Assembly (NCBI GenBank): GCA_025451725.1
Contig: JANWJX010000032.1
Location: forward strand, 1 to 37,987
DNA length: 37,987 nt
Direction: 5' to 3'
From: Allostellaceae bacterium
GTDB lineage: Bacteria > Pseudomonadota > Alphaproteobacteria > ATCC43930 > CGMCC-115725
Shown here: piece by piece, positions 25,161 to 28,956 of the stretch
Layout of the letters: every line of letters starts with the position of its first letter
Numbering within the stretch: the stretch's first letter is position 1
The notes under the pieces: model-generated
Seen by the model: only the letters and a program-made list of their open reading frames with translations
What the model was told of the DNA's origin: nothing
Databases searched by the model: none
Program-made: the position numbers and the translations under genes

Positions 25161-25807
25161 CCGATCCCGCCGCCTTCATACGCGCCAACACCGAAACCGC
25201 GTCGCCGCCGCTGGTGCCTGAGATCAGGCTGCATCTTGCGTCCGAAGTCACGCCGCTCTGGCAAATGACCGAGCGCGAGCTGGACCGGCACAATCTGCCG
25301 CCGCCTTATTGGGCCTTCGCCTGGCCGGGCGGGCAGGCGCTGGCGCGCTATCTGCTCGACCATCCCGACACGGTGCGCGGCCGGCGCGTCTGGGACATCG
25401 GCGCCGGCGGCGGGCTGGCATCCATCGCGGCGCTCAAGGCTGGCGCCGCGTCCGCCACCGCGTTCGAGATCGATCCGTTCGCGCTCGCCGCCATCGCGCT
25501 TAACGGCGCCCTCAACGGCGTGGCGCCGCTGGCCGAGGCCCGCGAGGTGCTGGCGGAGCCGTTCGCCGGTGAAGCCGATCTGATCCTGATCGGCGACATG
25601 TGCTACGAGCGGCCGCTGGCCGAACGGCTTGTCGCCTGGCTGCAAACCGCCGCCGGCCGGGCCGAAATCCTGCTCGCCGATCCCGGCCGGGCTTACTTAC
25701 CCAAAACCGGCCTTGAACTTGTCATAAGTTACGCGGTGCCAACCTCGCTCGACCTCGAGGACCGGGCGATCCGCACCACCGCGATCTATCGCCTCGCGGT
25801 GGCTTGA
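25157..25807 (+). CDS. ETF-beta lysine methyltransferase (METTL20/ETFBKMT family)
   Basis: SAM-dependent methyltransferase of 216 residues. FAWPGGQALARYLLDHP (54-70), the SAM-binding WDIGAGGGLASIA (79-91), GDMCYERPLAERL (146-158) and ILLADPGR line up with the human mitochondrial enzyme that trimethylates lysines of the electron-transfer flavoprotein beta subunit. Alphaproteobacteria carry the orthologs. It starts with GTG at 25157, overlapping the Rieske gene stop as GTGA. No etfAB genes are in this window. Its presence here may link ETF modulation to the catabolic operon or may be coincidental. Its stop codon lies inside an FNR-type palindrome that belongs to the next gene. Confidence 0.83.
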   Translation: MTDPAAFIRANTETASPPLVPEIRLHLASEVTPLWQMTERELDRHNLPPPYWAFAWPGGQALARYLLDHPDTVRGRRVWDIGAGGGLASIAALKAGAASATAFEIDPFALAAIALNGALNGVAPLAEAREVLAEPFAGEADLILIGDMCYERPLAERLVAWLQTAAGRAEILLADPGRAYLPKTGLELVISYAVPTSLDLEDRAIRTTAIYRLAVA

Positions 25808-25877: not shown

Positions 25878-26453
25878 ATGCAAGTCCCGTTGCAAATCAC
25901 CTTTCGCCATATGTCTCCGTCGCCCGCGGTCGAGGGTCATATCCGCGAGCGCGTCGCCCAGTTGGAAAAATTCTTTCCGGGGATCGTGGCGTGCCGCGTC
26001 TCCGTCGAATCGAGCGCGCGGCAGCATCGGCAGGGCAAGCTCTATCATCTGCGCGTGGCGCTGACGGTTCCGAACCGCGAGATTGTCGTCAAACGCGATC
26101 CCTCGGAACATCACGCCCATGAGGACATTCTGGTCGCGGTGCGCGATGCGTTCGACGCGACGCGGCGACAACTCGAAGACCATATTCGCCGGCAGCGGCT
26201 CGACACGAAATCGCACGCGACGCCGGACCACGGGAGGATCGCGAGCGTATTTCCCGATCATGCCTTCATCCGCACGCCGGCGGGGGACGAGGTGTATATG
26301 CATCGCAATTCGCTCGTCGGCGGCAAGTTCGAGGCTTTGACGGTCGGCGACGAGGTTCGCTTTTTCAGCCACGAAGCCGAGGGCGAAAAGGGTCCGCAGG
26401 CGAGCACGGTCGAGCGGATCGGAAAGCACCATCTGCCGCCGGCAAAGGAATAG
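25878..26453 (+). CDS. hpf: Ribosome hibernation promoting factor (HPF/RaiA family) with C-terminal cold-shock domain
   Basis: Cytoplasmic protein of 191 residues. Residues 1-105 form the S30AE domain that sits in the decoding centre of idle ribosomes: LQITFRHMSPSPAVEGHIRERV, then a basic strand and helix ending ATRRQLEDHIRRQ. A linker leads to residues 118-180, which follow the cold-shock domain pattern (HGRIASVF, FIRTPAGDEVYMHRNSL, FEALTVGDEVRFF, KGPQASTV). RNP2 is present as VYMH; RNP1 has lost most aromatics. This replaces the dimerisation domain of long HPFs, so it probably does not make 100S dimers in the usual way. TGGGGTG lies before the ATG. The upstream FNR-type site suggests induction at low oxygen. 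Confidence 0.85.
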   Translation: MQVPLQITFRHMSPSPAVEGHIRERVAQLEKFFPGIVACRVSVESSARQHRQGKLYHLRVALTVPNREIVVKRDPSEHHAHEDILVAVRDAFDATRRQLEDHIRRQRLDTKSHATPDHGRIASVFPDHAFIRTPAGDEVYMHRNSLVGGKFEALTVGDEVRFFSHEAEGEKGPQASTVERIGKHHLPPAKE

Positions 26454-26483: not shown

Positions 26484-27911
26484 TCAACCCTTGATGCAGA
26501 CGATCGGCTCGAGCCTGGCGACCTTTCGCGCCAGGCCGGCCCGATGCGCCGCGTCGACAACAGCGTCGGTGTCCTTGTAGGCGCCGGGCGCTTCCTCGGC
26601 GACGCCGCGGCTTGACGGGCTCTTGATCACGATGCCGCGTTCAGCGAGTTGATCGACGACCTGACGGCCGCGCCAGCGGCGCGCCGCCGCATGGCGGCTC
26701 ATGGCGCGGCCCGCGCCATGGCAGGCGGACGCGAAGGCGCGTTCCGGCTGCGGATTGCCGGCGAGGATCGCCGAACTGGTTCCCATGCTGCCGCCGATGA
26801 TCACCGGCTGGCCGACCGCCGCGAACGCCGCCGGCAGATCGGAATGGCCAACGCCGAAGGCGCGGGTCGCGCCCTTGCGGTGCACGAACAAAAGCCGCCG
26901 CTTGCCGCCGACCGCGTGCCATTCCTCCTTGCAAGTATTGTGCGAGACGTCAAACAGCAGATCGAACCGTCCGCCCGGGAAAAAATGCTCGAGCACGCGC
27001 CGCGTCAGATGGGTGACGATCTGGCGGTTGGCATAGGCACAATTGGTCGCGGCGCGCATCGCGCCAAGATAGCGTTGGCCCAACTCGGAACGCAGCGGGG
27101 CGCAGGCCAGTTCGAGATCGGGCAGGACCAAGCCGAAATCCGGCGCCGCGACCGCCATCTCGCGCAGGAATTCGGTGCCGATCTGATGGCCGAGACCGCG
27201 CGAGCCGCAATGGATGCTGACCACGACATCGCCCAGCCGGAGGCCGAACGAAGCCGCGGCGACGGCATCGTGGATCCGGGTCACTTCCTGGACTTCGAGA
27301 TAGTGATTGCCCGAGCCAAGTGTGCCCATCTCGTCATGTTGGCGCTTCTTGGCGTACGTCGAGACGGCGTCAGGCCGCGCGCCCGCAACCTTGCCACGTT
27401 CCTCGATGCGCTCAAGATCTTCGGTCCCGCCGTAGCCCTGGGCCAGTGCCCAATGGGCGCCGCCTTCGAGCATCGCATCCATCTCGGTCTCGTCGAGTGA
27501 GATTTTCCCGGTGCTGCCGACCCCGGCGGGAATGTTGCGGAACAGAGAGTCGGCAAGCGATTTCTTGACCGGCTCGATGTCGGCGCGTTTGAGGCCGGTA
27601 AGCAACGTCCGCACGCCGCAGGAAATATCGAAGCCGACGCCGCCGGCGGAAATCACGCCGCCCTCGTCGGGGTCGAACGCGGCGACGCCGCCGATCGGGA
27701 AACCATAGCCCCAGTGCGCGTCAGGCATGGCGTAGGCGGCCTCGACGATGCCGGGCAGGCCCGCGACGTTGCGCAACTGCTCCAGCACCTTGTTGTCCAT
27801 GTCGTTGATCAGTGCCGCGTCGGCGAAGATGACGCCCGGCACCCGCATCGCGCCGCTTTTCGGCACCTGCCATTCCGTGTCGCCGATCTGCTTCAACCCG
27901 TTGGTGTCCAT
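26484..27911 (-). CDS. rtcB: RNA-splicing ligase RtcB
   Basis: GTP- and Mn-dependent RNA ligase of 475 residues joining 2',3'-cyclic phosphate or 3'-phosphate ends to 5'-OH ends. Metal ligands are visible: D95 and C98 in GVGFDISCGVR, H203 in GSGNHYLEVQ, H234 in SIHCGSRGLGHQ and H324 in DVSHNTCKEE. The guanylylated histidine is H398 in CHGAGRAMSR. All residues required for catalysis are present. The ATG at 27911 lies 7 bases after the archease stop, forming a two-gene unit with its activator. No RtcA or RtcR gene is nearby, so control differs from the E. coli rtc operon; an FNR-type site lies upstream of archease. Converges with hpf, stops 30 bases apart. Confidence 0.93.
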   Translation of the reverse strand: MDTNGLKQIGDTEWQVPKSGAMRVPGVIFADAALINDMDNKVLEQLRNVAGLPGIVEAAYAMPDAHWGYGFPIGGVAAFDPDEGGVISAGGVGFDISCGVRTLLTGLKRADIEPVKKSLADSLFRNIPAGVGSTGKISLDETEMDAMLEGGAHWALAQGYGGTEDLERIEERGKVAGARPDAVSTYAKKRQHDEMGTLGSGNHYLEVQEVTRIHDAVAAASFGLRLGDVVVSIHCGSRGLGHQIGTEFLREMAVAAPDFGLVLPDLELACAPLRSELGQRYLGAMRAATNCAYANRQIVTHLTRRVLEHFFPGGRFDLLFDVSHNTCKEEWHAVGGKRRLLFVHRKGATRAFGVGHSDLPAAFAAVGQPVIIGGSMGTSSAILAGNPQPERAFASACHGAGRAMSRHAAARRWRGRQVVDQLAERGIVIKSPSSRGVAEEAPGAYKDTDAVVDAAHRAGLARKVARLEPIVCIKG

Positions 27912-27918
27912 TGGCGCC

Positions 27919-28341
27919 TCATACGTCGACGATGCATTGCGCAACCCAGCCGCCATCGTCGCGTTGCCCGACCTTCAACTCGGTCAGGGTCGCGCCCTTG
28001 GGCTCGACGGCGGGCGCATGACGATCGCGGTCGACCGGTTCGCCCCATGCTTCGGCGCGGAGCCGCCCATCGTCGATCGCAACCTCGTAACGCCCGAACA
28101 ACATGCGCCGCACCGCCATCTCGTAGATCAGCCGGTTGAGCCAATCGTTGAGCAGAAGCAGATCCGACGGCGCGCTGCATTCCAGTAGCACCTTCGTCCG
28201 CGACGCGACCCCGGCCGGGTCGGTGACGAGCGCCGTCAGCGCCAGCGCCGCTTGCGCGAACGCTTCCGCCTTGCTGTCGGCAATGCCGCGGACCCCGATA
28301 TCCGCGCCGTGGGGGAAATGCTCGTAATGGGCGCTTACCAT
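27919..28341 (-). CDS. Archease, RtcB activator
   Basis: Protein of 140 residues of the archease (SHS2-fold) family, which speeds the guanylylation and turnover of RtcB. The N-terminus YEHFPHGADIGVRGIADS carries the conserved His and metal-binding Asp, followed by the helix FAQAALALTALVTDP and LLLLNDWLNRLIYEMAVRRM. The ATG at 28341 gives the normal archease N-terminus; longer in-frame extensions add low-complexity sequence and cross the FNR-type site. It is the first gene of the unit with rtcB. Distance from the centre of the upstream FNR-type palindrome allows a class II promoter starting near 28358. Confidence 0.88.
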   Translation of the reverse strand: MVSAHYEHFPHGADIGVRGIADSKAEAFAQAALALTALVTDPAGVASRTKVLLECSAPSDLLLLNDWLNRLIYEMAVRRMLFGRYEVAIDDGRLRAEAWGEPVDRDRHAPAVEPKGATLTELKVGQRDDGGWVAQCIVDV

Positions 28342-28392
28342 CCTGGGCGCCTTTCGCGCATGAATCTTTCCCCGGCCGAAGCCGGAACGACG

Positions 28393-28406
28393 TTGATCTG
28401 AATCAA
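28393..28406. promoter_or_regulatory. FNR/FixK-type operator between archease-rtcB and the membrane protein gene
   Basis: TTGATCTGAATCAA matches the FNR consensus TTGAT-N4-ATCAA at every fixed position. It lies in the 99-base gap between divergent genes. Leftward, a class II start would fall near 28358, with AAGATT or GAAAGA as a weak -10. Rightward, it would fall at 28441, the start codon itself. Either or both genes could be controlled; leftward leaves a usable leader. Confidence 0.78.
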
Positions 28407-28440
28407 GGCCGCAGCCGACCGAGCCGGATATTGACTTTCC

Positions 28441-28956
28441 ATGGCTGCCAACTTCTCCACATCGAGCCACGACCGGCGTCAATTGAGCCTTCGCCTGTCG
28501 CATCGCGAAGCAAGCGCCGTTGGCCGCATCGCGGCGGCGGTGATACTTGGCTTGGTGCTGCTGATATTGTCGGCGATCATCAATATCGCCAAGGGTGCGT
28601 CCGGTTCAGAATGGGCGCCAATGTGGATTTCCAGTGCCGTCGCATGCGTGATCGTAGCCGCGGTCGCCGTCGGCGCTTCGACCTTGCGCGCCGTGTGGGG
28701 CGCGCTGTCTTTCCTGTGTTTCCTTGCCGGTGTCGTGCTGGCGGCGTCGCTTCCCTGGTATTCCCGGGCGGCAGAGGCGGTGCCGCAATCATCAGCCGAC
28801 CTGGCCCAATCGCTCGGACTGTCGCCGCCGCTCGGCGCGGCGGTCGGCGGCGCCATCGTCTCCGGCGCCATGGGCATCATCGCGGTCATTGTGACCGTTG
28901 TGTTTCTGGCAGCGAGCTACTTCCTCCTATATCACCACCGCGACCGGCAGGTCTGA
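28441..28956 (+). CDS. Hypothetical membrane protein, four predicted segments
   Basis: I do not recognise a family. The 171-residue product has a polar N-terminus with Ser and Arg (LSLRLSHREASAVGR), then hydrophobic segments at about 29-49 (IAAAVILGLVLLILSAIINIA), 62-80, 85-103 and 135-163, and a short basic C-terminus (YHHRDRQV). No enzyme motif or metal site is seen. The start at 28441 lacks a clear ribosome-binding site and coincides with the position where an FNR-type promoter would begin transcription, so the message may be leaderless. Codon use and the regular hydrophobic pattern support a real gene. It ends 106 bases before typA. Confidence 0.6.
   Translation: MAANFSTSSHDRRQLSLRLSHREASAVGRIAAAVILGLVLLILSAIINIAKGASGSEWAPMWISSAVACVIVAAVAVGASTLRAVWGALSFLCFLAGVVLAASLPWYSRAAEAVPQSSADLAQSLGLSPPLGAAVGGAIVSGAMGIIAVIVTVVFLAASYFLLYHHRDRQV

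Follow-up and report, generated by a model that had tools for sequence, protein, structure and literature searches.

An FNR/FixK-type box before an archease-rtcB pair and a candidate low-oxygen dormancy regulon

What archease-type RtcB does in bacterial physiology is poorly understood. The locus described here lies in a 37,987-nt stretch of DNA from an Allostellaceae bacterium (the window, meaning the whole stretch that was analysed), in which a leftward archease-rtcB pair is preceded by an FNR/FixK/DNR-type box. It raises the question of whether this box controls the pair and, if so, through which regulator and in answer to which signal.

The gene pair, the box and its promoter geometry

Alignment of the rtcB product to PH1602 (PDB 1uc2, E 2.3e-148) showed that the Cys, His, Asn and Asp positions, which we take to be the catalytic residues of RtcB, are retained. 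Judged by these positions and by the neighbouring archease gene, the window RtcB is of the archease-partnered type. Archease adjoins rtcB in 93 of 93 loci, and the true start of the window rtcB may be at 27911. The features of the region are collected in Table 1.

Table 1. Features of the archease-rtcB region of the window
Feature	Position	Strand	Basis
FNR/FixK/DNR-type box TTGATCTGAATCAA (minus strand TTGATTCAGATCAA)	28393..28406		motif match
Second FNR/FixK-type box TTGACGCAGGTCAA	25804..25817		TTGAYN4RTCAA match
HPF, S30AE domain fused to cold-shock domain	25878..26453	+	PF02482 5.4e-15, PF00313 1.7e-6
rtcB, 3'-5' RNA ligase, archease-partnered type	26484..27956	-	PF01139 2.5e-163
Archease, 140 aa, leading gene of leftward pair	27919..28341	-	PF01951 4e-35
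Putative -10 region (AAAGAT) and transcription start for archease	28358..28371	-	3/6 matches to TATAAT (weak)
Rightward ORF, 171 aa, about four hydrophobic segments, no known family	28441..28956	+	hydropathy

The first-pass annotation had called the box an exact FNR consensus, and this was borne out. It is a perfect TTGAT-N4-ATCAA and, by motif scan, the sole exact copy within the window, where 18 places match TTGATN4ATCAA with two mismatches or fewer (7.4 expected). It sits inside the 99-bp gap (28342-28440) between archease, whose ATG (28341, minus strand) is 51 nt away, and the rightward ORF, whose ATG (28441) is 34 nt away. The window's own genome (G000) is partial, at 1.73 Mb and 61% completeness; it contains the exact motif in 2 places and the reversed control in none. 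The exact form is too narrow for alphaproteobacteria, the alphaproteobacterial version being the relaxed TTGAYN4RTCAA; this occurs in 8 places in the same genome (reversed control 2), 2 of the 8 within the window, and since it was adopted after the site before the HPF gene had been noticed, the choice of motif is partly data-led. It accords with the FnrL site list of PMC2908626, which was read after the choice had been made. Two further boxes of this genome (L146, contig C4, 3219-3232 and 6363-6376) lie on either side of a gene pair for cytochrome b561 and a P-type cation ATPase, which on this arrangement would plausibly belong to the same regulon.

The letters of the box are also those of sites bound in vivo in another alphaproteobacterium. 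In Rhodobacter sphaeroides, where the FnrL passages of PMC2908626 report 27 regions bound in ChIP-chip, the FnrL sites before coxII and at fnrL/hemZ (Table 2 of that paper) are letter-identical to the minus-strand window 14-mer, TTGATtcagATCAA. By the same passages, FnrL acts through this site to repress coxII and fnrL and to activate hemZ. As one 14-mer both represses and activates, the sign of regulation is unreadable from its letters.

In the leftward direction, the putative -10 region lies 23 nt past the box, which would place the box centre at about -42.5 and leave a leader of about 16 nt, given this weak -10. A consensus promoter scan called no promoter; the spacing would suit a box centred near -41.5 from a sigma-70 start, with a weak -10 match. 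Rightward, if the box is centred at -41.5 as in class II promoters, transcription would start precisely at the first base of ATG 28441, and the -10 position would be occupied by TATTGA. No Shine-Dalgarno sequence was seen before this ATG, so that a leaderless rightward message is possible, and the membrane ORF may be a putative second target of the box. This same coincidence of start and ATG, together with the TATTGA, would also favour a reading in which the box works rightward alone, for the 171-aa ORF and possibly into typA, while archease-rtcB has a separate and unregulated promoter. We hold this to be very unlikely: the ORF lacks a relative in 384 other genomes of the class, and the box recurs before archease where the far-side neighbours differ. 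Nor was a counterpart of the ORF found in 60 related genomes or in plasmids, and with a weak coding signal (coding bias) in its first part it may not be a gene. Archease-rtcB is kept here as the preferred target of the box.

Recurrence of the box before archease

In the window's own family (f1), RtcB of the window's type is encoded at 11 loci. The box stands directly before archease in 4 of them (the window, L032, L033 and L037) and heads the operon in 2 others, namely L034, where the genes behind it read polX-NAPRTase-archease-rtcB with intergenic gaps of 4 to 22 bp, and L035, where they read hsp20-archease-rtcB. An operon-head box is absent from the other 5 (L036, L038, L039, L043 and L145); in L038 a box is found some 700 bp away, and in L145 none is present throughout its 11 kb. 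The box is hence conserved before orthologous operons, though not universally (6/11 family f1 loci, operon heads included). In L037 (G022) archease is split across two frames and the sequence stops inside the RtcB match, so this copy may be damaged or misassembled. L145, counted among the 11, was left out of the 87-locus and neighbouring-start counts given below. Omitted from the counts were L045 and L046, which share contigs with L033 and L034, and L076, L081, L097 and L118, in which archease is cut or partial.

We compared these counts with what would be expected by chance. From each genome's box density, a box in the 200 bp ahead of archease would be expected in 0.03 of the 11 family f1 loci, against the 4 observed; the density used is that of the whole genome, and boxes are denser in promoter regions. 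Chance placement is nevertheless made unlikely by this difference. That the box is a chance palindrome devoid of function could draw on the relaxed motif in the window genome, half of whose 8 places lie inside genes, but the excess over expectation and the presence of the second box before the HPF gene make it a most improbable explanation, the weakest that we considered. The box is very likely to be a genuine archease-rtcB operator of the Crp/Fnr type, as far as motif, position and recurrence can tell.

A stricter comparison sets archease against the gene starts around it. Outside family f1, a box lies within 200 bp of 10/77 archease starts and of 14/510 neighbouring starts (Fisher p 3.6e-4), a roughly fivefold higher frequency at archease. 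Within family f1 the figures are 4/10 archease starts and 16/109 neighbouring starts (p 0.063), and archease is not clearly ahead there because the neighbouring genes are themselves box-rich. Over 87 loci, 15 of 52 boxes fall within the 300 bp before archease, which make up 2.6% of bases; the control motifs gave 0/1 (reversed) and 0/3 (another palindrome) in the same interval. Mapped on the RtcB tree, the presence of the box requires 14 changes and is no more clustered than in shuffles; either the box has been gained and lost several times, or part of the set is noise.

Three family f1 genomes (G011, G023 and G027) hold 50 to 102 boxes each, and the reversed control none; such counts suggest that family f1 has a large Crp/Fnr regulon. 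One of the three, G027, has two archease-rtcB copies, L032 (contig C9) with a box before archease and L043 (contig C166) unboxed.

Candidate regulators

In a well-known system, the E. coli and Salmonella rtcBA operon, the RtcB RNA ligase is under stress control, as is proposed for the window pair; however, its partner is RtcA and not archease, and it is driven from a sigma-54 promoter by RtcR, which senses cyclic-phosphate tRNA ends, as described in the relevant parts of PMC7790460. A search for RtcR (PF06956) gave no match in 61 genomes, including the window genome at 61% completeness, with the E. coli positive control detected, and a sigma-54 -24/-12 site was found before archease in 0 of 87 loci. 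RtcR/sigma-54 control of archease-rtcB was rejected on these two counts. The first-pass annotation had proposed an oxygen regulator instead of RtcR; the recurrence of the box and the two null results agree with this, the control itself being predicted from sequence. An E. coli-type FNR control of rtcBA was also sought in the literature. The passages of PMC10734468 on this operon instead describe a rise of rtcA and rtcB upon phage infection with or without oxygen, and give no link to FNR.

No Crp/Fnr regulator passed the cut-off in the window genome, 61% complete. The complete congener G001 encodes two Crp/Fnr regulators with an E-x-x-S-R helix and an N-terminal Cx2Cx7C cluster plus a further Cys, an arrangement that we take to be that of the oxygen-sensing FnrN/FnrL proteins; no RtcB match is present in G001. 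Family f1 genomes hold many Crp/Fnr proteins. In G053 the archease-rtcB locus (L041) is unboxed, and a Crp/Fnr match is also absent from this genome.

In sequence the box matches the operator used by FnrL and FixK regulons of alphaproteobacteria (Dufour et al. 2010, PMC2908626), and both window 14-mers are bound by FnrL in R. sphaeroides in vivo according to that study. Archease-rtcB differs from the targets described there in that the reconstruction of the alphaproteobacterial FNR, FixK and DNR regulons never names RtcB in its main text (0 occurrences, PMC2908626). No report of FNR/FixK-type control of RtcB or archease was found in the titles, abstracts and passages covered by the literature searches. 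Within these, FNR-type control of RtcB appears unreported, and RtcB under a hypoxia regulator is known from mycobacteria.

A second box, the gene neighbourhood and the signal

The second box lies at the other end of the pair. The HPF gene, which encodes a ribosome-hibernation factor and converges on rtcB, starts 60 nt downstream of this box, whose centre would be at -41.5 with a -10 candidate TAGCAT (a weak match). The second window 14-mer, TTGACgcagGTCAA, is letter-identical to the FnrL ChIP site before RSP2573 of R. sphaeroides in the site list of PMC2908626. Among the closest HPF matches that also carry the cold-shock domain (L151-L162), an exact box is found within 300 bp upstream in 6 of 12 loci; in two others (L152 and L154) a box is found farther off, at 570-660 bp upstream, and in L152 it precedes what looks like a DUF3775-hpf pair. 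Other HPF matches (L163-L174, some of them partial) have a box upstream in 0 of 12.

The genes that stand beside archease-rtcB in family f1, several of them boxed, encode HPF, Hsp20, CBS, BON, DUF2267 and DUF3775 proteins and an APH-AAA kinase, and further neighbours encode phosphoribosyltransferases, PRPP synthase, NAPRTase, DNA polymerase X and a baeRF/host-attachment protein. By family assignment, the box-bearing neighbours are of stress and dormancy families. Hsp20 and CBS-domain genes already belong to the FixK set in the parts of PMC2908626 that list it. A comparable neighbourhood is found in the Balon/RaiA stress operons, where RtcB lies beside the ribosome-hibernation gene RaiA and Hsp20; unlike the window, the passages of that study (PMC10901736) give gene neighbourhoods and not an FNR-type operator.

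This neighbourhood bears on the signal, for which low oxygen is the likeliest candidate and NO the main alternative. In the NO reading, a nitric oxide- or nitrite-sensing Crp/Fnr relative (DNR/NnrR) would read the box, and archease-rtcB would answer nitrosative stress in denitrification. FNR, FixK and DNR share one common target sequence in alphaproteobacteria (PMC2908626), and the many Crp/Fnr proteins of family f1 genomes are in keeping with this reading. However, the boxed neighbours are of the dormancy type (HPF, Hsp20, CBS, NAPRTase) and no denitrification gene was present among the scanned neighbours of archease-rtcB, so that we regard nitrosative control as unlikely. Boxes and neighbours are best read as placing archease-rtcB, together with HPF and Hsp20, in a low-oxygen dormancy regulon of the FNR/FixK type.

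In the full form of this low-oxygen model, to which we assign a probability of roughly 0.78, the box is an operator through which a regulator of the FnrN/FnrL/FixK type activates archease-rtcB at low oxygen. A Crp/Fnr-family dimer would bind the box when oxygen is low and, from a class II position (centre at about -41 to -43), would activate leftward transcription of the pair, while the box at 25804 would turn on the convergent hibernation factor gene. Archease would keep RtcB turning over, and RtcB would reseal broken RNA, such as tRNA halves and cut rRNA ends. With this RNA resealed while ribosomes are parked, translation could restart. The arrangement suggests that the RNA-repair pair would be turned on alongside ribosome-hibernation genes as oxygen runs out. 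A conserved putative low-oxygen box common to archease-rtcB and HPF also suggests where to search for RNA substrates, namely during anoxia and the recovery that follows it, with HPF as the partner.

For the comparison with mycobacteria, we take Rv2630, the small gene upstream of Rv2631 in Mycobacterium tuberculosis, to be archease-like. Block 8 of the hypoxia-induced DosR regulon, Rv2623-Rv2631, ends in Rv2630-Rv2631 (RtcB), and the regulon also contains the hibernation factor Rv0079, HspX, a phosphoribosyltransferase and a nicotinamide-salvage gene, with its RtcB listed as uncharacterised (PMC5309233). The likeness to the regulon proposed here, which extends over RtcB with its small upstream neighbour, hibernation factor, alpha-crystallin, phosphoribosyltransferase and nicotinamide salvage, is one of gene content alone. 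The regulators are unlike, since DosR acts with the sensor kinases DosS and DosT and the window operator is of the Crp/Fnr type. As RtcB is already part of a hypoxia-induced regulon, its control by oxygen is not new in kind. The first-pass expectation that the locus would differ from the known rtc system accordingly holds for the type of regulator, and gives way to this precedent as regards oxygen control. The box would tie RNA repair to hypoxic dormancy outside mycobacteria. A broader proposal, which we put forward tentatively and with less than even confidence, is that archease-RtcB is a recurrent member of low-oxygen dormancy programmes under unrelated regulators (DosR on one side, FNR/FixK-type boxes that would have arisen repeatedly in alpha- and gammaproteobacteria on the other), mainly mending the RNA of hibernating ribosomes for waking.

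Two minor observations concern ribosome-related genes in family f1. Behind archease-rtcB in L036 (7602-8637, G029) lie an ArfB-like, release-factor-like ribosome rescue gene, recognised by eye, and an NMD3-family gene (PF04981). On contig C689 of G027, a gene for HPF with the cold-shock domain is found about 4 kb from a Crp/Fnr regulator with the E-x-x-S-R helix.
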